Shown: positions 930 to 41,445 of the stretch, piece by piece
How positions within the stretch are numbered: the first letter of the stretch is position 1
How the letters are laid out: every line of letters starts with the position of its first letter
Virus record (IMG/VR): IMGVR_UViG_3300030838_000405
Location: 1 to 42,719 of that record
Origin: a virus
Length of the DNA stretch: 42,719 nt
Direction: 5' to 3' (one strand)
Position numbers and translations under genes: made by a program
Notes under the pieces: model-generated
Seen by the model: only the letters and a program-made list of their open reading frames with translations
Database searches by the model: none
What the model was told of the DNA's origin: nothing

Positions 930-1223
930 ATGAAAACTATTGAGAGGCAAAACAAAGAATCCCGCATTACTTTGCGCCTGAATAAAACTGAGCTCGACAC
1001 CATGAATGCAAAGATGGCTGAAGCAGGCTACAAGTCCGCAGGCGCGTTCATCAGAGATTTCGTTGCCACTGGACAGGTCAAGCCTAAAGTCGGGCAGGAC
1101 GTCGTCCAGATCGCCCGCGAGCTGATGAGCCTGGCCTCGATGATCAACGCCGACCGCCCAGGCAGCGAGCTCTTGGAAAAGGTGAGGTACATCGCTCAGG
1201 TAAACCTGGGAGGTGTTGCATGA
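930..1223 (+). CDS. MobC-like mobilisation accessory protein
   Basis: This 97-residue protein begins with a basic segment containing RITLRLNKTELDTMNAKM. That is the ribbon-helix-helix-like start typical of MobC proteins, followed by a helix containing AGYKSAGAFIRDFV. In mobilisable plasmids MobC binds oriT and helps the relaxase open the DNA. Its stop overlaps the relaxase start by ATGA, so the two are translationally coupled. The ribosome-binding site is weak. The family call rests on sequence pattern plus neighbourhood. The C-terminal part (ELMSLASMINADRPGSELL) is less typical. Confidence 0.8.
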   Translation: MKTIERQNKESRITLRLNKTELDTMNAKMAEAGYKSAGAFIRDFVATGQVKPKVGQDVVQIARELMSLASMINADRPGSELLEKVRYIAQVNLGGVA

Positions 1224-2374
1224 TTGGCAAGATCTTTCCCAAGTCAGCAGGCTCTTTCAGGAACCGAATTCGGTACATATTTGGCTGCACCAAGCACGAC
1301 CATGAAATCTCCAGCATCCGGACGATCAGCCACAACACAATGAGCAAAGACCCCCTGCCGGGAGTGCTACAGGGAAACGAAGCAGACCTCACTGATATGA
1401 TCAAGGAGTTCGACCAGGTGGAGACCCTCAGGCGCTTCGCTATCGACTCTGATAAGCCCATCAAACCCGTCTTTCATGCGATGCTGTCGCTGCGCCCCGG
1501 AGAGTCCCTGACAACCCCGCAATGGCGTCAGGCGGTCACGAAGTACATGACAGACCTAGGCTTCGACGAAACGACTCAGTATGTCGCTGTAATGCACCAA
1601 GACAAAGATCACCAGCACGTCCACATCGTAGCGAACCGCATTAGGCTTAATGACGAATTCAGCATGGTAAAAGACAGCAATGAGCGAAGCATCAGCCTTG
1701 AGTCAGTGTCCAGCATCGAAGACCGCTTCAACCTGTCGAAAGCACCGAAGCCAAAGGACACATGGGGCGTCTCGATCACTCACGCAGAGCTCCAAGCTTC
1801 CATCCGCGACAATGATCTACCTCTGAAGCACAAGATGATCGCAAAGATCGCGGGCGCTATCGAAGCCACGAACGCCGTCGACGGCGATATGTTCACGTTC
1901 ACCCGACTACTGAGAAGGCAGAAGGTCTACATCAACCTCTCCCTGAACGATGAGGGCCAGCCCAAAGGCATCAGCTTCGAGTTTGACGGCAAACACATCA
2001 GTGGCAGGCAGCTCAAACGCTCAAGGTTGACGTGGCACAAACTAATTACACAAGAAGGAATTAACTATGACCCAGAAACCATTTCAGAACTTCAGAACGA
2101 GATTGCAAGAAGAGATCGCGAGGAGCAAGAAAGAGCTCGAATCTACTACTATGAATTCATCGCAGTCAGCGGTCGCAGAAGAAAGCCTGTCTACGTCAGA
2201 TTCACGGCAAAAGACTACGAAGTTCAGAAATTGATTCAGGAGATTCTTGAGCTGCTAGATGCGATATTTGATGCTCTGTTCAAGCCGAAAGAGTGCAGAC
2301 TGAAGCGCAACTACATTGAGTTTACTCCGGGTGCACCATTAATTATTCCAGAAGAAGATGAGCTTACGCTTTGA
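1220..2374 (+). CDS. MOBP-type relaxase (mobilisation nuclease)
   Basis: This 384-residue protein is expected to nick one strand at oriT, stay linked to the 5' end through a tyrosine and pilot the strand into the recipient. The key evidence is HQDKDHQHVHIVANRI at about residues 133-148, the HxDxxHxHxHhxxN metal-binding motif III of MOBP/VirD2-type relaxases. The N-terminal FPKSAGSFRNRIRYIFG places a likely catalytic tyrosine at residue 19. The length is modest: it is a relaxase domain plus a basic and acidic C-terminal tail, with no primase or helicase domain. No coupling protein or mating-pair genes are seen, so transfer would need a helper conjugation system. Its 3' end overlaps the convergent exonuclease gene by 11 bp. 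Confidence 0.9.
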   Translation: MIGKIFPKSAGSFRNRIRYIFGCTKHDHEISSIRTISHNTMSKDPLPGVLQGNEADLTDMIKEFDQVETLRRFAIDSDKPIKPVFHAMLSLRPGESLTTPQWRQAVTKYMTDLGFDETTQYVAVMHQDKDHQHVHIVANRIRLNDEFSMVKDSNERSISLESVSSIEDRFNLSKAPKPKDTWGVSITHAELQASIRDNDLPLKHKMIAKIAGAIEATNAVDGDMFTFTRLLRRQKVYINLSLNDEGQPKGISFEFDGKHISGRQLKRSRLTWHKLITQEGINYDPETISELQNEIARRDREEQERARIYYYEFIAVSGRRRKPVYVRFTAKDYEVQKLIQEILELLDAIFDALFKPKECRLKRNYIEFTPGAPLIIPEEDELTL

Positions 2375-3587: not shown

Positions 3588-3827
3588 ATGGGTAGTAAAT
3601 ATAACAGCGTGGCAGATCAGGTTTTGGCTCTAGCTGAGGGGCATGGAATTACCGCCGAACTGGGTCGCATTGACAACATGGCCAATACCTTCTCAAGGCT
3701 ATCTGGAGATGATGTGAAACTTGATAAAATCGAAGTTCTGCTAATTCACTTAGTGCGGAAGGAAGCCATCAGTCAGGAAGAGATGTTTTCTTTGCTCGAA
3801 GGATACATGGATGAGTCGAAGTCATGA
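3588..3827 (+). CDS. Hypothetical small protein
   Basis: This 79-residue protein is mostly helical and acidic and matches no family I know. It opens a tightly packed plus-strand set of three genes: its last codons overlap the next start by ATGA at 3824. No strong ribosome-binding site precedes the ATG. The gene is supported mainly by the coupled downstream frames. Confidence 0.55.
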   Translation: MGSKYNSVADQVLALAEGHGITAELGRIDNMANTFSRLSGDDVKLDKIEVLLIHLVRKEAISQEEMFSLLEGYMDESKS

Positions 3828-4108
3828 GTTCAAGATCTCTTATCTATGAGGCGGTTGTTCGCGAAGTGAATCATGAAGTCTATGTTGAGGGGCTCGTTTT
3901 CGGCATTGTCGACGACTCAACGAAAGACGGCGACCGTATGACTACCCACCGAATCCGTAAGGCCTGGGTAGATGGTGACGGCATCGGCGCTGTCGACAGC
4001 CAGGGGAACGAATTCCTCGTAATCGACGTTGATCAGACTCATCCATCGGCTCCGACTAGCCTGCATCGGTTGTTTGCGCTCGCGTATCTCAGCCGGAGGG
4101 AATCATGA
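3824..4108 (+). CDS. Hypothetical protein
   Basis: This 94-residue soluble protein is beta-rich in composition (YEAVVREVNHEVYVEGLVFGIV) and of unknown function. It is coupled by four-base ATGA overlaps to both the preceding and following genes, so the three products are probably made together. The next gene encodes a membrane protein whose soluble domain also reads like a small beta-rich module, so the pair might interact. That is inference. Confidence 0.6.
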   Translation: MSSRSLIYEAVVREVNHEVYVEGLVFGIVDDSTKDGDRMTTHRIRKAWVDGDGIGAVDSQGNEFLVIDVDQTHPSAPTSLHRLFALAYLSRRES

Positions 4109-4530
4109 GAATCAACTGGGCGGTGCCCTTACGAGCGCTCTGGGGCCTACTGCGCTGGTTCATCAGACAGATCAACACATGGGGAGGCATTTTGATTTCT
4201 ATTCCGCTGATCCCCCTGATCTGGTTTTTCGTAATGATGATGAAGGGAGCTCGCCGTGTGGGCAGAATGATAAAGCGGGCTTTCAGCCCTTCTGACCACG
4301 TGCTCAGCGAAGTCGTAGCGGACGAAGCTGGCTGGATCTATGGCCAAGTGGACGGCGACACGACTGCTTTCGGGCTTTTCGCAGAGATGCACGTCGAAGC
4401 ACGCTTGGTCAAAAAAGGCATGGTGCTCCGTGACCGCAACGGCAAAACCTTACTCCTAACGCACTTCGAAAAAGGCCAGAAACCTGCGCCCCTGGCCACA
4501 CTGCTTGCTGAGTCGTTTTTACGAGAGTAG
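4105..4530 (+). CDS. Hypothetical single-span membrane protein
   Basis: This 141-residue protein has a strong ribosome-binding site (GGAGGG, six bases before ATG). The first 50 residues hold an amphipathic stretch and a hydrophobic segment (about 29-47, containing ISIPLIPLIWFFVMMM) followed by basic residues. This fits an inner-membrane anchor with a cytoplasmic C-terminal domain. The rest is a compact beta-rich domain with no family match that I can name. The 3' end overlaps the convergent 4519-4965 gene by 12 bp. Confidence 0.65.
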   Translation: MRINWAVPLRALWGLLRWFIRQINTWGGILISIPLIPLIWFFVMMMKGARRVGRMIKRAFSPSDHVLSEVVADEAGWIYGQVDGDTTAFGLFAEMHVEARLVKKGMVLRDRNGKTLLLTHFEKGQKPAPLATLLAESFLRE

Positions 4531-4965
4531 ATGCCTCAACTGCACGCTTGAGAGACGCATAATTTCAGCCACTGAATAGACCTTGCGGCGCACCAGCGTC
4601 TTCGCGAGGTCGTATGCGTCCATGTCACCTCCAATGCTGCCTACGGCGCCCATAAGAGCCAACTGGTCATACTCCGATAGCTGAGCCTCACCCAATGCTT
4701 GCTCGGCCTCCGCCTTAGCCAGCTTCGCTCGAACTTCTATATCCAGTTCATCCGCTCGCCTTTCTGCACGATTTGAAAGTGCGCGTAAGCCGGCTTCGCC
4801 GAACACTTCGATTACATCAAGAGTAATATCAATCAACTCCTGAAATTCCTGTGCATCATCATGCTCATATGAAAGCCCGCACCCACAATCTTCTCTATGC
4901 AAATCACCACTTTTAATAAGTGCGTCAGCGATAGCCTGGTGATTAACTGAAATCTTGATACCCAT
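4519..4965 (-). CDS. Hypothetical protein
   Basis: I chose the ATG at 4965 because AGGA lies about eight bases upstream. A longer frame starting at 5040 lacks a ribosome-binding site. The 148-residue product is acidic, with a short cysteine-containing segment EDCGCGLSYEH and a long charged helical region (about residues 55-100, including AKLAKAEAEQALGEAQL). I do not recognise the family. It is encoded opposite to its neighbours, so it is an independent unit. Confidence 0.6.
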   Translation of the reverse strand: MGIKISVNHQAIADALIKSGDLHREDCGCGLSYEHDDAQEFQELIDITLDVIEVFGEAGLRALSNRAERRADELDIEVRAKLAKAEAEQALGEAQLSEYDQLALMGAVGSIGGDMDAYDLAKTLVRRKVYSVAEIMRLSSVQLRHLLS

Positions 4966-5083
4966 TATTATTTTCCTTTTTGGCTGGGACTTATAAACAT
5001 AATATTGAATTGGACTCGCCCACTCAATAAATAAATGCAATCTATATGAAGGTAGTTTGATGTCAAATAGCCCGCCGACGCTA

Positions 5084-5111
5084 TTGCACTGCCTGGAACC
5101 CCTTATATAAT
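5084..5111 (+). promoter_or_regulatory. Sigma70-type promoter for the 5141-7177 membrane operon
   Basis: TTGCAC at 5084-5089 and a perfect TATAAT at 5106-5111 are separated by 16 bp, 29 bp upstream of the ATG at 5141. A GGAGC ribosome-binding site lies between them and the start. This is one of the best promoter matches in the window. Confidence 0.7.
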
Positions 5112-5140
5112 GGGCTTATACAGAGATTTCGGAGCTCAAG

Positions 5141-6121
5141 ATGAGCAAAAAGCTGTCGGCATTACTTGTCGCAATCGCATTCCTTTTGTCTAGCGTAACT
5201 GCAATTTCTGTTGCGCTTGCAATGTACGCATTGATTGAAGACAAGAACCTGGCGCTTCTTTTTGCGTCTGCAGCCGTGCTTCTGGATATTTTCAAGTATC
5301 TGGCGTGGCCTGTTGCCATTCGTGTTTTGCGTGGCACAAGTGCAGTGCTGACAATTGCATGCGCCCTGATGCTTTCGGGTGTTAGCGGTTGGGCCACTTA
5401 TGATCGACTCATGACTTCGATTAGCGTCAGCAAAGCAACTCACGAAGTAATGACTACTGACCGTGTTAGTGCATTGATTGCCATGGCTCAGAAAGACTCA
5501 GCACTGATCTCACAGCTTGATAAAGAGATCGCCGATGCGGGGTTACAGGCTAATGATCTGCGTGCGCGTGGAATGGTTTCCAAGGCCTTGGAGCTTGAAG
5601 AGTCAGTAAGCTCTCGTGCGTCAGCTCAGCGCGCTCAGGCACTAGCACGCCTTAATGAAGGCTCCCTGGAGATCGCGCACATCAAATCTGGTGTTGCTAA
5701 AGCGTCGAGCCTGCCTCCGCTGCTTGCGCAGTTTCTGTGCCTCGGCTTCGCAATGTCCCTGGAGATAGTTCCGGCACTCATCCTAGCTGGCGTCAGAAGC
5801 TCTGGACGCTCTAGCACGGGTGTTGTAGCCTCAGCGGCTAGCGAAACGCCATCATCGGAAGTTAAGGTGACTGGCATGCCAGAGGGAGTGACAGAAACGC
5901 CAGAAACCGTGAAAAACCCAGAAACCCTGCTCGACTCGAACGCAGAAATCCTGAAAACCCTGGTTGTTCACGCAAAAACTCTGGAACCCGGCACCCCCGT
6001 TCGGCTCAAGGTTTTTGCGAAAAACGCCAGAATCGGGAACCTCCGAGCTGGTGAGATTTTCAGGAACGCAGAGGGTTTGGGCGTTATTAGAAAAACCACA
6101 ATTGGGTATGTAACTGCGTAG
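5141..6121 (+). CDS. Multi-span membrane protein with central coiled coil, unknown function
   Basis: This 326-residue protein has three N-terminal hydrophobic segments (about residues 6-31, 36-60 and 66-86). A charged, probably coiled-coil stretch follows (about 100-180), then a fourth hydrophobic segment (about 193-220). A soluble tail rich in P, E and T leads into a small basic domain (about 280-326, containing KVFAKNARIGNLRAGEIF). Its job is not recognised. Similar shapes occur in plasmid-borne membrane proteins near mob genes. It opens a three-gene set behind a clear promoter. A role in mobilisation or exclusion is possible but unsupported. Confidence 0.7.
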   Translation: MSKKLSALLVAIAFLLSSVTAISVALAMYALIEDKNLALLFASAAVLLDIFKYLAWPVAIRVLRGTSAVLTIACALMLSGVSGWATYDRLMTSISVSKATHEVMTTDRVSALIAMAQKDSALISQLDKEIADAGLQANDLRARGMVSKALELEESVSSRASAQRAQALARLNEGSLEIAHIKSGVAKASSLPPLLAQFLCLGFAMSLEIVPALILAGVRSSGRSSTGVVASAASETPSSEVKVTGMPEGVTETPETVKNPETLLDSNAEILKTLVVHAKTLEPGTPVRLKVFAKNARIGNLRAGEIFRNAEGLGVIRKTTIGYVTA

Positions 6122-16469: not shown

Positions 16470-17182
16470 TTATTGCTCTCCGGCAATTTTCATCATCAGA
16501 TCATTAAAGGGTTTCGAATCCCCCGTGACGCAAGATATTCGGCTCAGGTGGTCGCCATACATTTTTGCGAATAGCTGCTCGCGGCTAAGTTCTTTTTGAA
16601 CTACAGCAACACTGAACAGCTTTCTGATTGAGTATTTGTATGGGTTAAGATTTGGGGTGTTATGTCCCTTGGAGATCAGGAATTCACAGTTAGAAACGAG
16701 GACGCCTACGAACTTATCTAACTCGTCACCATCCTCAGCGCTCTCTTTGCGTTTCCTCTCTGCTTCAAAGTCTTTTACTTTTTCAGCAGCTGTACGATTG
16801 TCGGCCCGAGTTTGATCAGACTTTTTTTTAGACCGTCAGGAAAAGTAAGCGAGAAAACTGCAGCAAGCAGTTCAACCTGGGTCATCAGGGGGAGGTTTCG
16901 TACGTGCGCAGCAGCATCAGGTTCTTTACAGCCAAGAGCGATACACGCAGCACCAAAGCCTGGAAACTGAAGCATGATGCCCTTCGAGTTGTCGGTATCC
17001 TTGAGGTCTTCTTTGGCATTCTGCAAGAAGATAGCGCCCAGGATTTTGCCGTGGCTATCCACCAAGCGGACAAAGTCCTCAGTGGTTAACCCATACACAT
17101 CGAAGGAAACTTCAGGTTTGTCTTCGGACGCCTGAGTAATGACAACTTTCTTAAATGGAACAACGAGGTCGAGCAAAGACAT
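16470..17182 (-). CDS. Tail assembly chaperone, long form made by -1 frameshift (gpGT-like)
   Basis: Reading the minus strand in the 0 frame gives a 135-residue protein. At codons 119-120 the sequence CT AAA AAA AAG (slippery A AAA AAA at 16829-16823) allows a tandem -1 slip. The -1 frame is then open for 117 more codons and stops at 16472-16470, two bases before the tape measure ATG. The product would be about 237 residues, with a second domain rich in E, K and R at first and then containing DKFVGVLVSNCEFLIS. This is the lambda G/GT arrangement: the T-like extension has no start codon of its own. It is well supported by layout and slippery site. Confidence 0.85.
16775..17182 (-). CDS. Tail assembly chaperone, short form (gpG-like)
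   Basis: This 135-residue protein is the first gene of the tape-measure operon. It is expected to coat the tape measure protein during tail assembly. The body is helical and soluble (LTTEDFVRLVDSHGKILGAIF, with FPGFGAACIALGC). The end of the gene carries the eight-A slippery run. The stop lies downstream of the slip site by 15 codons, so most ribosomes make this short form. A TGATATGAT element 36 bases upstream and an AATAATAATAAG leader precede the ATG. Confidence 0.82.
   Translation of the reverse strand: MSLLDLVVPFKKVVITQASEDKPEVSFDVYGLTTEDFVRLVDSHGKILGAIFLQNAKEDLKDTDNSKGIMLQFPGFGAACIALGCKEPDAAAHVRNLPLMTQVELLAAVFSLTFPDGLKKSLIKLGPTIVQLLKK
16822..16831 (-). promoter_or_regulatory. -1 ribosomal frameshift slippery site
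   Basis: On the minus strand the run CTAAAAAAAA is read CTA AAA AAA A in the 0 frame. It fits the heptamer A AAA AAA for tandem -1 slippage by lysyl-tRNAs. It joins the short chaperone to the 117-codon open extension. Runs of eight A are rare in coding DNA of this GC content. Confidence 0.8.
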
Positions 17183-17217
17183 ACGAGGGCCTTTCTTATT
17201 ATTATTCTTATATAGCT

Positions 17218-17226
17218 ATCATATCA
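17218..17226 (-). promoter_or_regulatory. Extended -10-like element before the tail chaperone operon
   Basis: The minus strand reads TGATATGAT, matching TGnTAnnAT, 36 bases before the ATG at 17182. The same pattern lies at a similar distance before five other minus-strand genes. No good -35 is seen, as expected for extended -10 promoters or for one needing a phage activator. Confidence 0.45.
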
Positions 17227-17290
17227 TTTCGATTGACACAGATGGGCCGGCAGTCAAGAATGCTTTGAGCTCAAACGGCATGAGGCCATG

Positions 17291-17635
17291 ATGCAGAAAA
17301 TTTCAGAATTGACGCTTGCTGAACGTGATGATTATGTTTGCCGTCAAAGTGTGGCTGTGCTGCAAGTTAGCGGGTATGACATGCCGTTGGAAGTTGCACT
17401 GGATTACTTGCTGGATTCTGAATCGCAGGATGGTTATCGATTTGATGTTCTGGACTGCGTGTTCAACTGTATTTCTTTTGCTTTAGAGCACAAGCGCGAT
17501 GACACAGAGGTGAAGGAAGCCATGGAGAACATGCTGATGCAGGTTGGTGCGGAGCATGTGCATCGGTTGACTGACCAGTTGTTCAAGATTGCCGAGGCTG
17601 CGGCCAAGGGCGAGCTGGAGCCGGTCGTATGCTGA
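17291..17635 (+). CDS. Hypothetical protein, cargo inserted in the tail operon
   Basis: I chose the ATG at 17291 because GAGG lies five bases upstream; an ATG at 17288 is possible. The 114-residue product is acidic and helical and I do not recognise it. It lies on the opposite strand to the tail genes and overlaps the histidine phosphatase start, so the pair is coupled. A TTGACA at 17234-17239 with AAGAAT 17 bp later may be its promoter. This marks the start of a cargo insertion between tail chaperone and tail tube genes. Confidence 0.6.
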   Translation: MQKISELTLAERDDYVCRQSVAVLQVSGYDMPLEVALDYLLDSESQDGYRFDVLDCVFNCISFALEHKRDDTEVKEAMENMLMQVGAEHVHRLTDQLFKIAEAAAKGELEPVVC

Positions 17636-18237
17636 CAGTTCATTTCGTGCGTCATGGTGAGAGCGCTGCGAACGCTGGTAATGCAACATCAGACCCGGCG
17701 CTGATTCCGTTGACTGAAAAAGGCTGGGCGCAGGCGCGGGCTGTAGCGGATTCGTTCGATGTAGCGCCCGATCTGATCGTGATGTCGCCGTTTGAGCGTG
17801 CTCAGGATACTGCGCTGCCGACCATCCAGAAATTCTCAGATTGTCCGGTTGAGATCTGGGCGGTGGAAGAATTTACTTACCTTTCCCCAACGCGTTGTGC
17901 CAACACGACTGCTGCTGAGCGGAAGCCTTGGGTAGACGCCTACTGGGGTTCGGCTGACCCGGACTTCAAGGATTGGCCTGGTACAGAGTCGTTCAGCCAC
18001 CTGATAAAGCGAGCAAGGTCTGTGCTAAGTCGCCTAAATGGCATGACGGGTAAGGTGGTGGTCTTTGGGCATGGGCAGTTTATGCAGGCTGTGAGGTGGC
18101 TGGTGGTAGCGACACCTCATCGCATAGACTCCGATGCTATGCGCTCATTCAGAGCTTATGACATGTCTAACCCGATTAAGAATGGGGAAACTCTGTCTTT
18201 AGATCATGATGGGCAGCGATGGATTTACAACCAATAA
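17629..18237 (+). CDS. Histidine phosphatase superfamily protein (phosphoglycerate mutase-like)
   Basis: This 202-residue protein has the catalytic RHG motif in HFVRHGESAANAG (H9), a following TEKGWAQARAVA helix, the active-site acidic region EEFTYLSP, and the second histidine in VVFGHGQFMQAV. These residues remove phosphate through a phospho-histidine. Substrates in the family range from sugars and nucleotides to phosphoproteins and signalling molecules, so the target is unknown. GGAG lies eight bases before ATG. A free-standing phosphatase of this kind in a phage tail operon is unusual and suggests a lysogeny-time (moron) function. Confidence 0.88.
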   Translation: MLTVHFVRHGESAANAGNATSDPALIPLTEKGWAQARAVADSFDVAPDLIVMSPFERAQDTALPTIQKFSDCPVEIWAVEEFTYLSPTRCANTTAAERKPWVDAYWGSADPDFKDWPGTESFSHLIKRARSVLSRLNGMTGKVVVFGHGQFMQAVRWLVVATPHRIDSDAMRSFRAYDMSNPIKNGETLSLDHDGQRWIYNQ

Positions 18238-18277
18238 TATAGATTTTTGACCACGTCCCTAGTACATGGAGAGTTGT

Positions 18278-19657
18278 GTGAGCGAAGACATTAAAATCAC
18301 ACGGATAGACCTCAAGAGGTTCACCGCATTAGTTGGCCCATCGCGAAGTCCTCGCGCAGCCTTCTTTAGTGAAGAGATAGATTGGTTTAGCAATGCCGAT
18401 GAGTCAGTTCTTGGCGTGGTGCTACTTGACACTACAGATAATGACTATGTCTGGCTTACACTAGGGCGTGATGAAATTGGTCGATACAGAAACTTCGCTA
18501 TAGAGGCTTGTATTGAAACCCAAGCAGAAGCTGAAAAGCAGTTAATCTGCAAAATGCAGGAAATTACAAAAACCGGACAAACCGTTTTCCCACAGGGAGA
18601 CAAGGGGCAAGCACTGGATCTCTTCAAAATTATCGTTACTGAGCAGAAGATCCACCCATTTTTCAGGCGCCTCTGTGAGGAACCATCCTTCTCATCCGCC
18701 AAAGGCATTATTGGTGAGATGATGCCGCACTATGTTGACATTGACGGAAACTTTGTAGAGCAGTTTCAGTCAGCGGGTTTTGATGCTCGCATCTGGGAAC
18801 TATATCTTAATTCCTATCTGATTGAGGAGGGGTTTGAATTTGATAGATCCCACTATGCTCCAGACTTCAACGTCAACAAATACGGCTACAAGGTTTGTAT
18901 AGAAGCCACTATTGTCGGACGCAAAAAACCGATGGGAGAAGATGAGGCTCGTATACCAGCAGAAAACTACACTAAGGAGCAGATATTAGAAAAGTCTATG
19001 GATGAGATGCCTATAAAATTTGGCAGCCCTCTCTACACTAAGCTTCAAAAAAAATATTGGTTGCACGAGCACGTACAAGGACATCCCCTTGTGATCGCCA
19101 TTGCTGACTTCCATGACAAACAAACCATGTTATGGAGCTCCACTTCGTTACCTAATTACCTTTACGGTGTACGTCACGAATCTCATTACGATGAGAATGG
19201 CAAGCTGGTAATAGACCCAATTAAAATCGACACTCACAAATTTGGCGATAAAGAGATTCCTTCGGGATATTTTTTTCAACCCGACTCTGAAAATATTAGC
19301 GCTGTGATGTTTTCAAATAGCGGCACAATTTCTAAGTTTAACAGGATGGGTAAACAGTCTGGTTTCGGCGCCAAAAACGTAATGTTATTCCGCACCGGCT
19401 TCTGTCATGACCATGATGAAAACGCATCAATGCCTAAAACATTTTCATTTGAAATAACTGGCGAGTCAAACGAAAGCTGGGCTGAGGGGTTATCTATGTT
19501 TCACAACCCAAATGCACTTCACCCGGTACATCCCGGTCTTTTTCCGTCAATAGCTCATCACTATTTTGACAATGGGCAAATTATAAGCAATCTCCCAGAC
19601 TTCTATCCCTACTCTTCAACTACTAATATTATAAATGTCGTGGATGGCGACAAATAA
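18278..19657 (+). CDS. Nuclease-like protein with WELYL...PDF...EAT motif, putative defence cargo
   Basis: I chose the GTG at 18278 because GGAG lies six bases upstream; an ATG at 18266 has no ribosome-binding site. The 459-residue product contains, near residues 172-211, RIWELYLNSYLIEEGF, then SHYAPDFNV, then KVCIEATI. This spacing of E, PD and E fits the PD-(D/E)xK nuclease fold, although the lysine of ExK is replaced (EAT). Many bacterial unknowns share this segment. The role is unproved: the context (moron on the opposite strand, before a terminator) and the motif suggest DNA or RNA cleavage in host or phage defence. No membrane segment is present. Confidence 0.6.
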   Translation: MSEDIKITRIDLKRFTALVGPSRSPRAAFFSEEIDWFSNADESVLGVVLLDTTDNDYVWLTLGRDEIGRYRNFAIEACIETQAEAEKQLICKMQEITKTGQTVFPQGDKGQALDLFKIIVTEQKIHPFFRRLCEEPSFSSAKGIIGEMMPHYVDIDGNFVEQFQSAGFDARIWELYLNSYLIEEGFEFDRSHYAPDFNVNKYGYKVCIEATIVGRKKPMGEDEARIPAENYTKEQILEKSMDEMPIKFGSPLYTKLQKKYWLHEHVQGHPLVIAIADFHDKQTMLWSSTSLPNYLYGVRHESHYDENGKLVIDPIKIDTHKFGDKEIPSGYFFQPDSENISAVMFSNSGTISKFNRMGKQSGFGAKNVMLFRTGFCHDHDENASMPKTFSFEITGESNESWAEGLSMFHNPNALHPVHPGLFPSIAHHYFDNGQIISNLPDFYPYSSTTNIINVVDGDK

Positions 19658-19677
19658 AAAGGGGGCGCTAGCCCCCA
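19656..19677 (-). terminator. Rho-independent terminator of the tail tube operon
   Basis: A perfect stem GGGGGC (19661-19666) and GCCCCC (19671-19676) with a GCTA loop is followed, on the minus strand, by TTTTTATTT. It lies 24 bp past the tail tube stop codon. In the plus direction there is no immediate T run, so it acts mainly for minus-strand transcripts. Confidence 0.85.
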
Positions 19678-19700
19678 ATGCAAAATTGGTTTTGCAATTG

Positions 19701-20474
19701 TCAGGCTACGACATGTTCTTCCTTGAACATCTTAGACAATCCCGATCCAGTGACAGCCCTAGAGACCTGCAGGGTTCCCTTGATCTCTTGGTCTGCGTAG
19801 TCACTCGACAAGAGCTGACGCTGGGCGGCTGGTGACAGGGCAACTTTGTGGTATGTGACCTTGACCGGCGTGTCGCTCTCAGCCAGGTTTACTCCATCGA
19901 AAACGATCATCACGTTGACCCCAGTATTCACCATGCCTTCGATTCTGCGAACGGCTGCCTTGTCGTACACGACATCAACAATGTCACCATCCGCAACGCT
20001 AGATGTCGACGGGAAGTAGATAGAGCCGTTTGAGACAACGTAGTCAGCGCCAAGCACCAAGGGGTCGCCCTCCCCGGTTACCTTGATGCTCGTTACACCA
20101 GCAATGATGCCTTCAACGATAATGCTGCGCCCCTTGTAGGCCTTTGCTTTAGCAGTGGCGCCAGTTTCAGCGATGTCTTCAGTTACCTTTCCGAAGAGTG
20201 CAAGCTCCATTACCTCTGGTGAAAATGACCGTAGGTTAATTGTTGCTTCTGCAGAGTTCTTAATTACTTTGGATTTGGCAACACCTAGAGTGCCATAAAC
20301 CATATCTGGCATCTCTACCTTGTCGCTGGACAAGGCCAATACAGCGGAAGAGGCCTGACCCACAGTAAAAAATCCACCTACAGGTTGGTCGTTGGCATCA
20401 AGCTTCGAAATGAGTAGCCCACCGTTTGCAATCCAGCCGATGGTTGTATCTGGTGCATTAAATCCTAAAGACAT
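19701..20474 (-). CDS. Major tail tube protein
   Basis: This 257-residue protein should polymerise into the tail tube. It starts MSLGFNAPDTTIGWIANGG and is beta-rich with the alternating composition typical of tube proteins. A middle insertion resembles a small Ig-like module (GITSIKVTGEG-type region, about residues 120-165). Position supports the call: it lies after the neck genes and before the chaperone and tape measure, with a strong terminator after it. AGG lies eight bases before the ATG, within a leader nearly identical to that of the major coat gene. Confidence 0.8.
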   Translation of the reverse strand: MSLGFNAPDTTIGWIANGGLLISKLDANDQPVGGFFTVGQASSAVLALSSDKVEMPDMVYGTLGVAKSKVIKNSAEATINLRSFSPEVMELALFGKVTEDIAETGATAKAKAYKGRSIIVEGIIAGVTSIKVTGEGDPLVLGADYVVSNGSIYFPSTSSVADGDIVDVVYDKAAVRRIEGMVNTGVNVMIVFDGVNLAESDTPVKVTYHKVALSPAAQRQLLSSDYADQEIKGTLQVSRAVTGSGLSKMFKEEHVVA

Positions 20475-20481
20475 GTCTTGT

Positions 20482-20512
20482 ACCTATTATTATTATTGTT
20501 ATTGGTATTTAG
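20482..20512 (-). promoter_or_regulatory. AATACCAATA...(AAT)n leader of the tail tube gene
   Basis: The minus strand carries AAATACCAATAACAATAATA followed by further AAT repeats and AGGTA just before the start. The same layout precedes the major coat gene (29627-29657). Both genes encode the most abundant virion proteins, so this may be a shared promoter or translation-enhancing leader. Confidence 0.5.
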
Positions 20513-20519
20513 TTTGAGC

Positions 20520-20966
20520 TCAAACAAGCACGATTCGTTGCGACCAGATAACTGACCAGGCGCTAAAGTCTGACTTGCCGTCAGTGACGCCATTAAATGC
20601 TTCTTTGACTAATTGTAACACGGGGATCTTGGTATTTGTTTTAGGGTCGCCACGGAAGTTCTCAATCATCTTTGCAATCTCTACGGCGGTGTCAGCAGCG
20701 ATAGATGACATTCCGTGCGTGGCTGGATCTATCTTGCCGATGACCCAGGCTCCAAACATTGCGTCGAGTTCCAGTTTCACCCTGGTATTTCTGTCCGGGA
20801 CGTTGCCTCCGCCGCAGGAGAGAAGTATGTACGGGCGTTTGCCATCAAGCTTTAGGTTCTTGAGATCATCTACTTCAAGTTCGCCTGAGAAGAATTTGAT
20901 GGTTGGTTTTGACGGCAAAGATTCCAGCTGGGTTTTGATTAGTTCAAGGTGATCGGAGATATTCAT
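20520..20966 (-). CDS. Mu gp37-like protein (DUF1834), tail/neck component
   Basis: This 148-residue protein resembles the DUF1834 group. It begins with a short helix (DHLELIKTQLESL) and has a central RPYILLSCGGG strand. The C-terminal WSVIWSQRIVLV is typical of tail completion proteins that handle the terminator ring. It overlaps the upstream morphogenesis gene by ATGA, in the Mu-like order gp36-gpG-gp37. In such phages this set lies between head and tail tube genes, exactly as here. Confidence 0.75.
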   Translation of the reverse strand: MNISDHLELIKTQLESLPSKPTIKFFSGELEVDDLKNLKLDGKRPYILLSCGGGNVPDRNTRVKLELDAMFGAWVIGKIDPATHGMSSIAADTAVEIAKMIENFRGDPKTNTKIPVLQLVKEAFNGVTDGKSDFSAWSVIWSQRIVLV

Positions 20967-32724: not shown

Positions 32725-33204
32725 TTAGCTCTGAGTCGAAAGCCATCGCTCAGCACGATCAAGTTTTCCGACCTCACGAAGCCCAGAACTGCCAACCGCC
32801 AGCAGTTCAAGGAAGCGCTGCCGATCTTCATCAGCTGGAAACCAGTCCGCTATCTCCACGCTGCAATGCTGAGACTCGCTCAGAGCCCATCTAGCAACTA
32901 GATCCGCTGCGGCCCTAAAGTGATCGGCCATCCAGACAGCATTTCCTTCAGCATGCCACCCACGCTCAGCTAACAGCTTGGTTGAATCCAAGATCCCTGC
33001 GTCACCAAAGAACGCCGTCGTGTCTGGAAAATGAATCCCCGCGAGCGACACTTTGCACACTCCTGACTCACGATCCCAGTACGCCAAAACATGCCACCCA
33101 CCAGTGGTCACGCCCGGAAATGGGAAATTGATCGCAGCTTTACCGGTGATGTAGTGCTCACGGGTAACACGCGAAAGGTCGAGGTCGAACAGTGGCTGGG
33201 TCAT
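32725..33204 (-). CDS. Hypothetical protein
   Basis: This 159-residue protein is compact and soluble (REHYITGKAAINFPFPGVTT, then WHVLAYWDRESGVCKVSLAG), with many W and H residues. It resembles hypothetical proteins I associate with Pseudomonas plasmids and phages, but I cannot name a family. It is convergent with the preceding gene (no gap) and divergent from the DUF4238 gene. GC content is relatively high. Confidence 0.6.
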   Translation of the reverse strand: MTQPLFDLDLSRVTREHYITGKAAINFPFPGVTTGGWHVLAYWDRESGVCKVSLAGIHFPDTTAFFGDAGILDSTKLLAERGWHAEGNAVWMADHFRAAADLVARWALSESQHCSVEIADWFPADEDRQRFLELLAVGSSGLREVGKLDRAERWLSTQS

Positions 33205-33296
33205 CCGGGCAACCTACCATCGAGCCCACCCCCAGGCAACGCTGTTTGACTCCAAACCGGGCCGCAGACAAGATGCCTTCAGGACAAGGAGCGAAG

Positions 33297-34223
33297 ATGG
33301 ACATCAAACGTGGCAATCACTACATCTGGGCGCATTACCTTCGTGGTTGGTCACATAACCAGAGGGATGTCTTTCATCGAACAAAGAAGGGCAACATCCA
33401 AGCCGTGAGCACCAAAGGGCTTGGTCGTGAATATGAGTTCTACAAGCTGACTCCGCTAGACAATATCGATGTCGAGTTTCTTGAATATTGGATAAGCCAA
33501 TGTACTCCTGCGACACGGCCACTCCATTATGGTTTTCTAAAGAGGATGATCGTCTATTCATGCCTTCTTGGCGTGCTTGATCCAATCAAAGATAAAGCAA
33601 AGCGCGATGAGATCACTTTCAACACAATCGAAGAACTACACACGACGATTGAAAATGACGTTAGGCCGACGCTCGACGCATTACGAGCTGGTAATTTTTC
33701 AGCTTTGCATGAAGTAAACGCGTTGAACAACTTGATCAGCTATATGGGCCACCAGTTCTCCCGAACAAAAGTTTTCCGTAACATTGTTGACTCATCGGCT
33801 CGCTCAGATAATCAGGTGATCAACGACCTGATCAAAAAAAACAACTGGTTTATGGCTATCCTCGTAGGAGTCAACATGGGCTACAGCACCGCCATGTACT
33901 ATGAGACAAAAAACGTGGTTTGGCTCATCAACAACACGGATACCCGGTTCATTACGAGTGACAACCCGGTGATCAACGTTCATCCCTCTGTGCTCAATCG
34001 TAAACCTAATGGCATACCACCCTTGCATACAGACCTATATTTCCCCATTTCCCCAACCCTTGCCTACATGGTGAATGACTCAGACAACTGGGGTAATGGC
34101 AAAGTAGAAGCTACCAACGAGACAGTCGTGGCGCTCAATAGACAGATACTCATCAGGTGTGATGAAACCGTGTATGGGGACAGCATGGAAATCATAAAGC
34201 AGACAAAGCTTCCGAAAGCGTAG
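33297..34223 (+). CDS. DUF4238 domain protein
   Basis: I chose the ATG at 33297, six bases after AAGGAG; a longer frame from 33192 adds a proline-rich stretch of low quality. The 308-residue product starts MDIKRGNHYIWAHYLRGWSH, the N-terminal DUF4238 signature. It later has RFITSDNPVINVHPS, the other conserved segment, and PISPTLAYMVN. The biochemical role of DUF4238 is not established. Members are scattered on mobile elements, so toxin or defence roles are plausible. It ends in its own terminator, making it a self-contained cargo unit. Confidence 0.85.
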   Translation: MDIKRGNHYIWAHYLRGWSHNQRDVFHRTKKGNIQAVSTKGLGREYEFYKLTPLDNIDVEFLEYWISQCTPATRPLHYGFLKRMIVYSCLLGVLDPIKDKAKRDEITFNTIEELHTTIENDVRPTLDALRAGNFSALHEVNALNNLISYMGHQFSRTKVFRNIVDSSARSDNQVINDLIKKNNWFMAILVGVNMGYSTAMYYETKNVVWLINNTDTRFITSDNPVINVHPSVLNRKPNGIPPLHTDLYFPISPTLAYMVNDSDNWGNGKVEATNETVVALNRQILIRCDETVYGDSMEIIKQTKLPKA

Positions 34224-39662: not shown

Positions 39663-41381
39663 CTACGTCGGAATGGGTTCTGGTTCGAATGGTGCGTTAC
39701 TATCTGCATCAAGTTCGACATCGACACGGCGAAATAAAAACTTAGCTTTGTTCTGATCGAAGACGTAGATGGCTGCCAGTGGGATTGCAGTTATCAATAC
39801 ACCAGTAAGCACGTCCGCCACTGAATGGCTGAATAAATTTAAAAGAGGAACGCCCATCAGTGCCTTAGATAAGGTGTTTGCAACATACAATCCTATAACG
39901 GTGGACGCTGCACCAAACAAGACTACTGATATCCTTTCGTATTTATCAGTTGCATCACTGATCATTACACGGACACAGCGCACCGTAGAAAGGGTGCACT
40001 CTCTAATAATCGATAGCACTAGAGCTGGCAACTTGACGAGCATGGAGATAAGTATCTGCGGTATCGCGCTAAGCACACCAGCAACACCACCCTCAATGCC
40101 AGCAGTCTTCGCTTGTTCCATAATTTTTCGCTCTTCAAAACGAGCACTAAGCTTTGCTGACAAACTAATCCTGCGCTCATCCAGTCCTTTGAGCACACCT
40201 TGCTTGTCAGTAATTAGTCCCTTTTGTGTTATGTCCTTGATCTCATCAACAAATATGTCGACGGTTTCAGCGACAATGACGCCAACGACTTGCTGTGCAG
40301 CCATCCTGGCTCCTGCGTCAGCTACAGAGAGGCCTATCTCTTTTAGTGCCTGCATCCGGATTGATGCGAGCTGCTCTTGGGCTTTCTCATATTTTTCAAG
40401 TGCGTCTTTTTCACTGATCGTAACCTCCTTGTTGCTCTCTCCGATGATGAAGGTGATCGTATCTGGATCATTTGGATCGCGGCGACCATAGCGCTCGATA
40501 TAAGCGATCAAGTCTCTGTCGCTCTTAGAGCCGTTCAAGGAGTCATCAGCATAGATTAAGTTTTGTTTGAAATTAATTGCGTCAACAATGCCGTCATCAT
40601 TAGTTGCAATTCGCAACAATAAGTCGTTGTATATCTGCTTTTTGGGGATGATATGTTCAATATCTGTAGACCATGGATCTAAAGTATTGTTGGCACTTGT
40701 GTCGTATCCGTTTGGCAGCCATTGGAACGTATCCCGAGCCTCAACACGTCCATCGTTCATATCTGCGAAATTTTTATGGTCATGCAGGTTATTTTCTTTC
40801 TTGAAGTCCTTATATTCAACAGAGAGGTTGCTATACTTCGCCTCGTTAGCCTTATCCAGCCCAGTCATGACTGGCGCCAAGCAAAAAGAAGCAATTGCTC
40901 GACGTAGTGCTTCCTGTTTAGTTTGCTCAAATATATGATCAACGTCCTGAGGCCTCACAGGAAGCTTGCTTCTGACCTCGGAGATAATTTGGTCTGTATC
41001 TTTGTCAACTTCCATCGTCCGTGAGAAGTATGTGGAGACCTTTTCCGCACTAAAGCTTGCATATCCCTTCATCTTCTGAGATGAACTGTCGTAGAAAGCC
41101 GACGACGAAGCACTGACCTGAAGGTATTTCGCCTTGGTGCCGTCAGAAAGAAGAGATAATTGTTCCTTGCTAGAAACAACAAAGTTGCTATTGGCGGTGG
41201 AGTCAGCAACTTCACACGCCTTATCTTTTGTGACTGAATAGGCATCAGTTACGCCATCTGCGACTCTTTTGGAATAATCGACAGTTTTTTCCTTGGCATC
41301 AACCAGAGCTTCCTTTCCGCTCGATACGGCATCCGAGACAATGTTACTGAGAGACTCAAATTTTCCCTTGAAAAAACTCAT
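39663..41381 (-). CDS. Membrane protein with HNH-like motif, unknown function
   Basis: I chose the ATG at 41381 (GGAG seven bases upstream); the frame extends to 41426. The 572-residue product has three parts. Residues 1-125 are repetitive, amphipathic and helical (KEALVDAKEKTVDYSKRVAD), like LEA or coiled proteins. Residues 235-290 contain TDIEHIIPKK, QNLIYADDSLNGSKSD: an HNH-type nuclease pattern with H243, N274 and K286. Residues 430-542 hold three or four membrane spans. It sits between terL and portal, which are normally adjacent. This suggests cargo, perhaps a membrane-tethered defence or exclusion nuclease. Function unknown. Confidence 0.6.
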   Translation of the reverse strand: MSFFKGKFESLSNIVSDAVSSGKEALVDAKEKTVDYSKRVADGVTDAYSVTKDKACEVADSTANSNFVVSSKEQLSLLSDGTKAKYLQVSASSSAFYDSSSQKMKGYASFSAEKVSTYFSRTMEVDKDTDQIISEVRSKLPVRPQDVDHIFEQTKQEALRRAIASFCLAPVMTGLDKANEAKYSNLSVEYKDFKKENNLHDHKNFADMNDGRVEARDTFQWLPNGYDTSANNTLDPWSTDIEHIIPKKQIYNDLLLRIATNDDGIVDAINFKQNLIYADDSLNGSKSDRDLIAYIERYGRRDPNDPDTITFIIGESNKEVTISEKDALEKYEKAQEQLASIRMQALKEIGLSVADAGARMAAQQVVGVIVAETVDIFVDEIKDITQKGLITDKQGVLKGLDERRISLSAKLSARFEERKIMEQAKTAGIEGGVAGVLSAIPQILISMLVKLPALVLSIIRECTLSTVRCVRVMISDATDKYERISVVLFGAASTVIGLYVANTLSKALMGVPLLNLFSHSVADVLTGVLITAIPLAAIYVFDQNKAKFLFRRVDVELDADSNAPFEPEPIPT

Positions 41382-41445
41382 CCAGTAGCTCCATTTTTCA
41401 TTGAACCAATGGCGGCAGTATGCCATCTACTGAGAATTAATCCAG

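Follow-up and report, generated by a model that had tools for sequence, protein, structure and literature searches.

Hotspots of defence genes in P2 phages and P4 satellites are said to have been described by Rousset and colleagues and by Vassallo and colleagues in 2022. PD-T7-1 was found and validated as an anti-phage protein by a functional selection in E. coli, where it protects against T-even phages more strongly than against T7; prophages as well as defence islands carry homologues of it (Vassallo et al. 2022, PMC9519451). Two other reports place Tab between terminase genes and Tai, for the most part, upstream of the packaging module (PMC10884400, PMC11364771). We analysed a window of 42,719 bases, the whole of a phage record whose late genes lie on the minus strand, and compared a three-gene locus of its tail operon with these systems.

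Three plus-strand genes in a tail operon and their products

The earlier note on this DNA had described three plus-strand genes interrupting the minus-strand tail operon between the tube and chaperone genes. We observed that the three frames (17288-19657) are open and that the flanking genes indeed belong to the tail-tube and pre-tape-measure (chaperone) families (Table 1). Since all three frames are conserved in relatives, we regard them as real genes. The first two, which the note had called coupled, overlap by 7 bp (17629-17635). The separate start which it had placed 40 bp further on for ORF3 fits a GTG at 18278, whereas the ATG at 18266 leaves a gap of 28 bp; because a GGAG lies just upstream of the GTG, the latter is the likelier start. 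The strong minus-strand terminator reported at the end of the locus is also real, as a hairpin followed by a T-run, but it belongs to the tail-tube gene, because it directly follows the stop of that gene and has an equivalent in a relative whose slot is empty (L022); the same equivalent led us to reject it as a part of the cargo. The terminator may mark a site at which an insert is only a small burden on the tail operon. An Rfam scan of 16700-20600 gave no match. ORF3 has 43.0% GC (GC3 44.0) and the adjoining genes 48-54%, ORF1 and ORF2 having a phage-like composition.

Table 1. Features of the locus and its borders in the window.
Feature	Position	Strand	Basis
Pre-tape-measure protein (tail assembly chaperone), left slot border	16775..17182	-	Pfam PF23789 8e-21; PHROG 5260
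Promoter-like site (TTGACA, 17 nt, AAGAAT) of the slot operon	17233..17261	+	TTGACA in 14/16 aligned ORF1 upstream regions, by eye
Perfect palindrome TTTGAGCTCAAA, at the expected ORF1 transcription start	17264..17275	+	Exact 12-mer in 13/16 ORF1 loci; one change in the remaining 3
ORF1, small acidic all-helical protein, first slot gene	17288..17635	+	115 aa; predicted pI 4.4; AF2 pLDDT 93.8
ORF2, histidine phosphatase superfamily branch 1	17629..18237	+	202 aa; PF00300 1.4e-21; motif residues conserved in alignment
ORF3, PD-T7-1 family anti-phage protein	18266..19657	+	463 aa; PADLOC PDLC04073 E 1.4e-196; GTG 18278 is the likelier start
Intrinsic terminator of the major tail protein gene, right slot border	19661..19676	-	Hairpin GGGGGCTAGCGCCCCC and T-run; counterpart in L022, a relative with an empty slot
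Major tail (tube) protein with Ig-like domain	19701..20474	-	phrog_807 9e-34; less conserved in identity than the genes upstream, as is the cargo
Second copy of TTTGAGCTCAAA, upstream of the tail-tube gene	20513..20524	-	Borders the right flank, where identity is high

Among 50,697 phage records there is no close relative of the phage family, and none covers 80% of the tape-measure protein; the matches to the tail-tube protein in these records are 24-31% identical. The window also encodes, at 1220-2374 (+), a MobA/VirD2-like relaxase (PF03432, 6e-22), a gene carried here by a phage. Fourteen loci from 13 genomes or contigs, most of them more distant members of the phage family, have homologues with approximately 42-58% identity, and the gene possibly points to phage-plasmids or to a relaxase-based replication. 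Between the portal and terminase genes, a 587-residue protein (39663-41426, minus strand; 45.1% GC) fits PDC-M40B, a candidate defence model of PADLOC (1.5e-19); the head operon may have a second cargo slot here. A DUF4238 gene at 33192-34223 (PF14022, 2.6e-18), on the plus strand amid minus-strand late genes, is possibly another insert.

Judged from its sequence, ORF3 is a clear member of the PD-T7-1 family. Its residues 12-457 match positions 2-448 of the 452 positions of the PADLOC profile, which is near full length (652 bits, 446 residues covered), and the PD-T7-5 model is clearly more distant (181 bits, residues 117-442). The PDF...EAT motif pointed out earlier corresponds to P199-D200-F201 and E213-A214-T215; we observed that P199-D200-F201 and I212-E213-A214 are invariant in 12 of 12 aligned homologues, with identities down to 35%, and that EAT takes the place of the classical E-x-K with its lysine. 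In the AlphaFold model (mean pLDDT 81.6), E178 is part of a helix and the strands that carry F201 and E213 adjoin each other, an arrangement expected for a PD-(D/E)XK fold. Fold searches with this model gave rows that are weak and mixed overall; among the weak ones are XisH (2okf; Z 5.5, rmsd 3.5, 120 residues aligned), BspD6I (6qnz; Z 4.5, rmsd 6.4, 164 residues aligned) and, by Foldseek, Hjc (4tkd; E 0.46), all of which we take to be PD-(D/E)XK proteins. Residues 15-106 match weakly the WGR domains of PARP (Z about 6). Compared with PDB sequences, ORF3 and three other cargo proteins gave no match at E 0.001. From its family we infer that ORF3 defends against phage. The suspicion that the locus has a defence role is thereby strengthened, the family being one that a review table lists, together with PD-T7-5, under PD(D/E)XK nuclease (PMC10952713).

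ORF2 belongs to branch 1 of the histidine phosphatase superfamily, with 77.5 bits against Pfam PF00300 (His_Phos_1; cut-off 21.7). Residues R8, H9, G10, R57 and H148, which we take to be the catalytic ones, are invariant in 7 of 7 aligned phage homologues and, judged by them, the phosphatase is intact. We rejected its identification as a CobC/alpha-ribazole phosphatase, the best NCBIfam model reaching 48.7 bits against an equivalog cut-off of 162.9; ORF2 stayed below the cut-off of every NCBIfam model that it matched. Neither ORF1 nor ORF2 found a match in sequenced phage isolates (50,697 records). Relatives of ORF2 elsewhere in Pseudomonas genomes are mostly 48-63% identical and have varied neighbours (30 loci, in two of which, L082 and L108, ORF picking missed the phosphatase). 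Among the chromosomal relatives we noticed a 383-residue version with a conserved C-terminal extension (L096 1501-2652, L101 405-1433), often beside a gene for a PPP-type (NinI-like serine/threonine) phosphatase; these two genes possibly form a phosphatase island.

For ORF1, searches of Pfam, PHROG, PADLOC and NCBIfam gave nothing better than E 0.01, and its membership in any of their families was rejected; among PDB sequences there was no match at E 0.001 and one at E 0.99. When the ORF1 model was compared with known structures, the top nine rows were all Fic proteins (best 4x2d; Z 10.1, rmsd 2.4, 110 residues aligned), above the next unrelated row (Z 5.8), yet below the Z of about 13 under which matches can be due to chance for helical proteins. 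Foldseek gave no significant match (best E 1.0), and the Fic catalytic motif, HxFx(D/E)GN(G/K)R, is absent by eye from 16 of 16 aligned ORF1 sequences. For these reasons the Fic fold is a lead rather than a finding, and the resemblance of the model to it is weak. A first scan of genome contigs with ORF1 gave no match. ORF1 is present in 3 of 398 Pseudomonas genomes (strain TH31, G186 and G203), as the sole gene of the slot in G186 and after a relaxase gene in G203, and all 14 viral loci found by an ORF1 profile belong to the phage family of the window. In G203 (L136, 6350-8012) the ORF1-like gene is directly downstream of a relaxase related to that of the window, and no tail genes were detected in the 16 kb of this locus that were covered.

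The slot and its cargo in related phages

We anchored the slot on a profile of the tape-measure protein, which is independent of the cargo. The 32 loci thus found come from one Pseudomonas genome (strain TH31, L014) and from 31 viral contigs (L015-L045). The pre-tape-measure gene is present in 29 of them, which with the window gives 30 slots; L021 and L025 run into contig ends, so that 28 slots are complete, and L043-L045 (tape-measure protein at 23-32%, flanking genes absent) were excluded from the census. We observed that 27 of the 28 complete slots are occupied, by 0.8-2.5 kb, the empty one (L022) having 131 bp between its two tail genes. ORF1 is the commonest resident, with 16 of the 30 slots; it accompanies the phosphatase in 11 of 11 phosphatase slots and stands without it in the other five.

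PD-T7-1 homologues were found in four slots, namely those of the window, of TH31 (91% identity) and of L018 and L032 (61%). The third gene of L016 and L020 encodes a protein of 349-361 residues with a PDYS...EVK motif, and such a protein directly follows ORF1 in L023, where the phosphatase is missing. In L017, L019 and L037, the phosphatase is followed by a protein that we read as GIY-YIG-like, two scanned homologues of which (228 and 418 residues) match PF13455 just below the cut-off. L015 has the phosphatase and no third gene, and in L021 the next gene is cut off. In L024, L031 and L038 the cargo consists of two minus-strand genes, a DNA methylase and a restriction gene, whose lengths agree between the three slots; in L024 these are an Eco29kI-type endonuclease and a C5-methylase (PF09517 1.7e-62; PF00145 6e-61), a complete restriction-modification pair. 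More distant phages have other genes in the slot, mostly unannotated: that of L042 has pentapeptide repeats, and the protein shared by L028, L029 and L039 has an RNHIAH stretch which, we assume, resembles a HEPN motif. Related phages carry differing defence cargo (PD-T7-1, Eco29kI restriction-modification) between the same conserved flanks, as in a defence hotspot. The best explanation suggested by these comparisons is that the position between the tail genes is a swappable phage-defence slot. Because several cargo families are unannotated, this designation rests on two clear defence cargos and on the motif-level resemblance of two more.

We also compared the window with seven relatives by sliding identity, and observed sharp changes of identity in several of them. 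L016 is 97-100% identical to the window through the 5' part of the phosphatase gene, at most 71% from approximately 18000 and again 94% at 20500; for L018, the values are approximately 80-95% on the left, 39-75% between 18000 and 20500 and 82-100% on the right. Near 18000 these two relatives drop from 95-98% to at most 75% identity, and they are back at 91-94% at 20500. The second TTTGAGCTCAAA and the start of the tail-tube gene lie at the right edge, and therefore the cargo and the tail-tube gene appear to have been exchanged as one block. Joint exchange is not universal, because in TH31 ORF3 is somewhat closer to that of the window than the flanks are, with no sharp breakpoint, and because L037 has a different cargo and yet a fairly similar tail-tube gene (73-86%). 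An apparent exchange of a defence gene together with a tail-tube gene would couple immunity to virion structure.

The exact 12-mer occurs twice in the window, where sites with at most two mismatches number 12, against 2.98 expected. Before the tail-tube gene, its 10-bp core is present in 11 of the 14 ORF1 loci that include this side and as a one-base variant in L037, with nothing found in L020 and L023; the core was found there in none of 12 inspected loci devoid of ORF1, L041 having a one-base variant. Paired copies are largely restricted to phages with ORF1. Their natural reading is a candidate operator, and shared descent could explain their association with ORF1.

Interpretation of the locus

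We propose, with a probability of about 0.8, that a family of temperate Pseudomonas siphophages has in this region a slot for defence cargo. In this reading PD-T7-1 acts alone, the operon has a promoter of its own, the phosphatase and ORF1 are translationally coupled residents, and the cargo is swapped by recombination. The plus-strand operon, with its predicted promoter, would be opposed to the late tail transcript, between the tail-tube terminator and the pre-tape-measure gene, and would probably be expressed in the lysogen while the tail genes are silent. ORF3, with its PD-(D/E)XK-like core, would attack the nucleic acid of infecting phages on its own, and this cleavage would protect the lysogen, hence the prophage, from other phages; the role of the two resident genes would be a separate one. 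New cargo would probably arrive by recombination at the conserved ends, one formed by ORF1 with the 5' half of the phosphatase gene and the other by the gene upstream of the tail tube; the cargo and the tail-tube gene would thereby be exchanged together.

The phosphatase and the nuclease-like protein had instead been proposed to form a two-part defence or signalling unit, in which, for example, a signal made or removed by one would license the other. The two genes are adjacent and co-oriented in four slots, and phosphatase relatives exist elsewhere in Pseudomonas, twice at 17-24 kb from a PD-T7-1 relative (G058, G339). However, the gene after the phosphatase is PD-T7-1 in four of the 11 phosphatase slots, the PDYS...EVK nuclease-like gene in two and the GIY-YIG-like gene in three, with none in one and a cut-off gene in one, so that the phosphatase precedes other cargo or none in six of 11. 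We viewed approximately 1.5 kb on each side of PD-T7-1 homologues, for 30 of the 37 matches from 33 genomes. Within the stretches thus covered, a phosphatase was present at 1 of 30 genome loci, the TH31 prophage, and at 2 of 11 viral loci, and all three belong to the phage family of the window. ORF3 relatives were also found in 13 annotated phage records; in the two whose neighbourhoods were viewed, from a Morganella and an Escherichia phage, they are opposed to the direction of the adjoining genes, with no annotated phosphatase nearby. The earlier note had suggested looking for the same pair in other genomes: PD-T7-1 homologues occur in 33 of 398 Pseudomonas genomes and the phosphatase clade of the window in 36, and five genomes have both, which is at chance level (3.0 expected, p 0.17), adjacency within the viewed stretches being confined to the phage family of the window. 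On the strength of the slot census, the PD-T7-1 neighbourhoods and the genome co-occurrence, with which composition agrees, we rejected an obligate pair; the phosphatase looks like a separate passenger, not the partner of the nuclease, and joint action of the two is very unlikely. This corrects a tempting misreading, since neighbouring genes in such slots need not be partners.

We give next to no credence to a neutral or decaying insertion devoid of function, in favour of which the cargos vary widely and the slot of L022 is empty, but against which the three frames are intact, the motif residues conserved and the operon kept across many phages. Another reading adds to the defence slot rather than excluding it: ORF1 and the phosphatase could be an active resident unit, with ORF1 as regulator or adaptor, serving host signalling or counter-defence, and the third gene as an independent passenger. 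The overlap of the two genes, the constant presence of ORF1 in phosphatase slots, the invariant phosphatase residues and the recurrence of the ORF1 promoter palindrome before the tail-tube gene speak for such a unit, but 5 of the 16 ORF1 loci lack the phosphatase, and ORF1, being acidic, is not an obvious DNA-binding protein; we hold this reading to be a tentative possibility, somewhat short of an even chance. That ORF1 is a non-catalytic regulator derived from a Fic fold, controlling the defence operon and the tail-tube gene via the paired TTTGAGCTCAAA, seems to us unlikely. If it were true, defence would be on in the lysogen and switched against tail production on induction, and the cargo and tail-tube segment would be a dedicated exchange cassette with built-in control.

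Comparison with described systems

A limited literature search found no publication on this slot. ORF3 adds to a known family and the slot to a known kind, the phage defence hotspot: with it, the tail operon joins the known positions for cargo, here in a Pseudomonas phage family that is uncharacterised, and it offers, several of its cargo families matching no known model, a place to look for new defence genes. In another locus (L002), a PD-T7-1 homologue lies next to an RT-protease gene (3675-5360; a reverse transcriptase-trypsin fusion, PADLOC RT-Protease_XI, 3.1e-190), in a position that we take to be a defence hotspot of the P2 type. Like the P2 and P4 hotspots, the slot has a fixed place between conserved phage genes and an exchangeable defence cargo. 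Unlike them, it belongs to another phage family and lies between the tail-tube and pre-tape-measure genes, a part of it is made up of residents, and the cargo seems to take the tail-tube gene along when it moves. With the prophage morons Tab of Pseudomonas phage JBD26 and Tai of phi80 it shares the location of temperate-phage defence genes among late or structural genes; it differs from Tab and Tai in that these interfere with tail assembly. Compared with the PD-T7-1 of Vassallo et al. 2022, ORF3 is alike over nearly the full length of the profile, but it comes from another host genus and phage family, lies within a tail operon behind a phosphatase, and has an anti-phage activity predicted from sequence.
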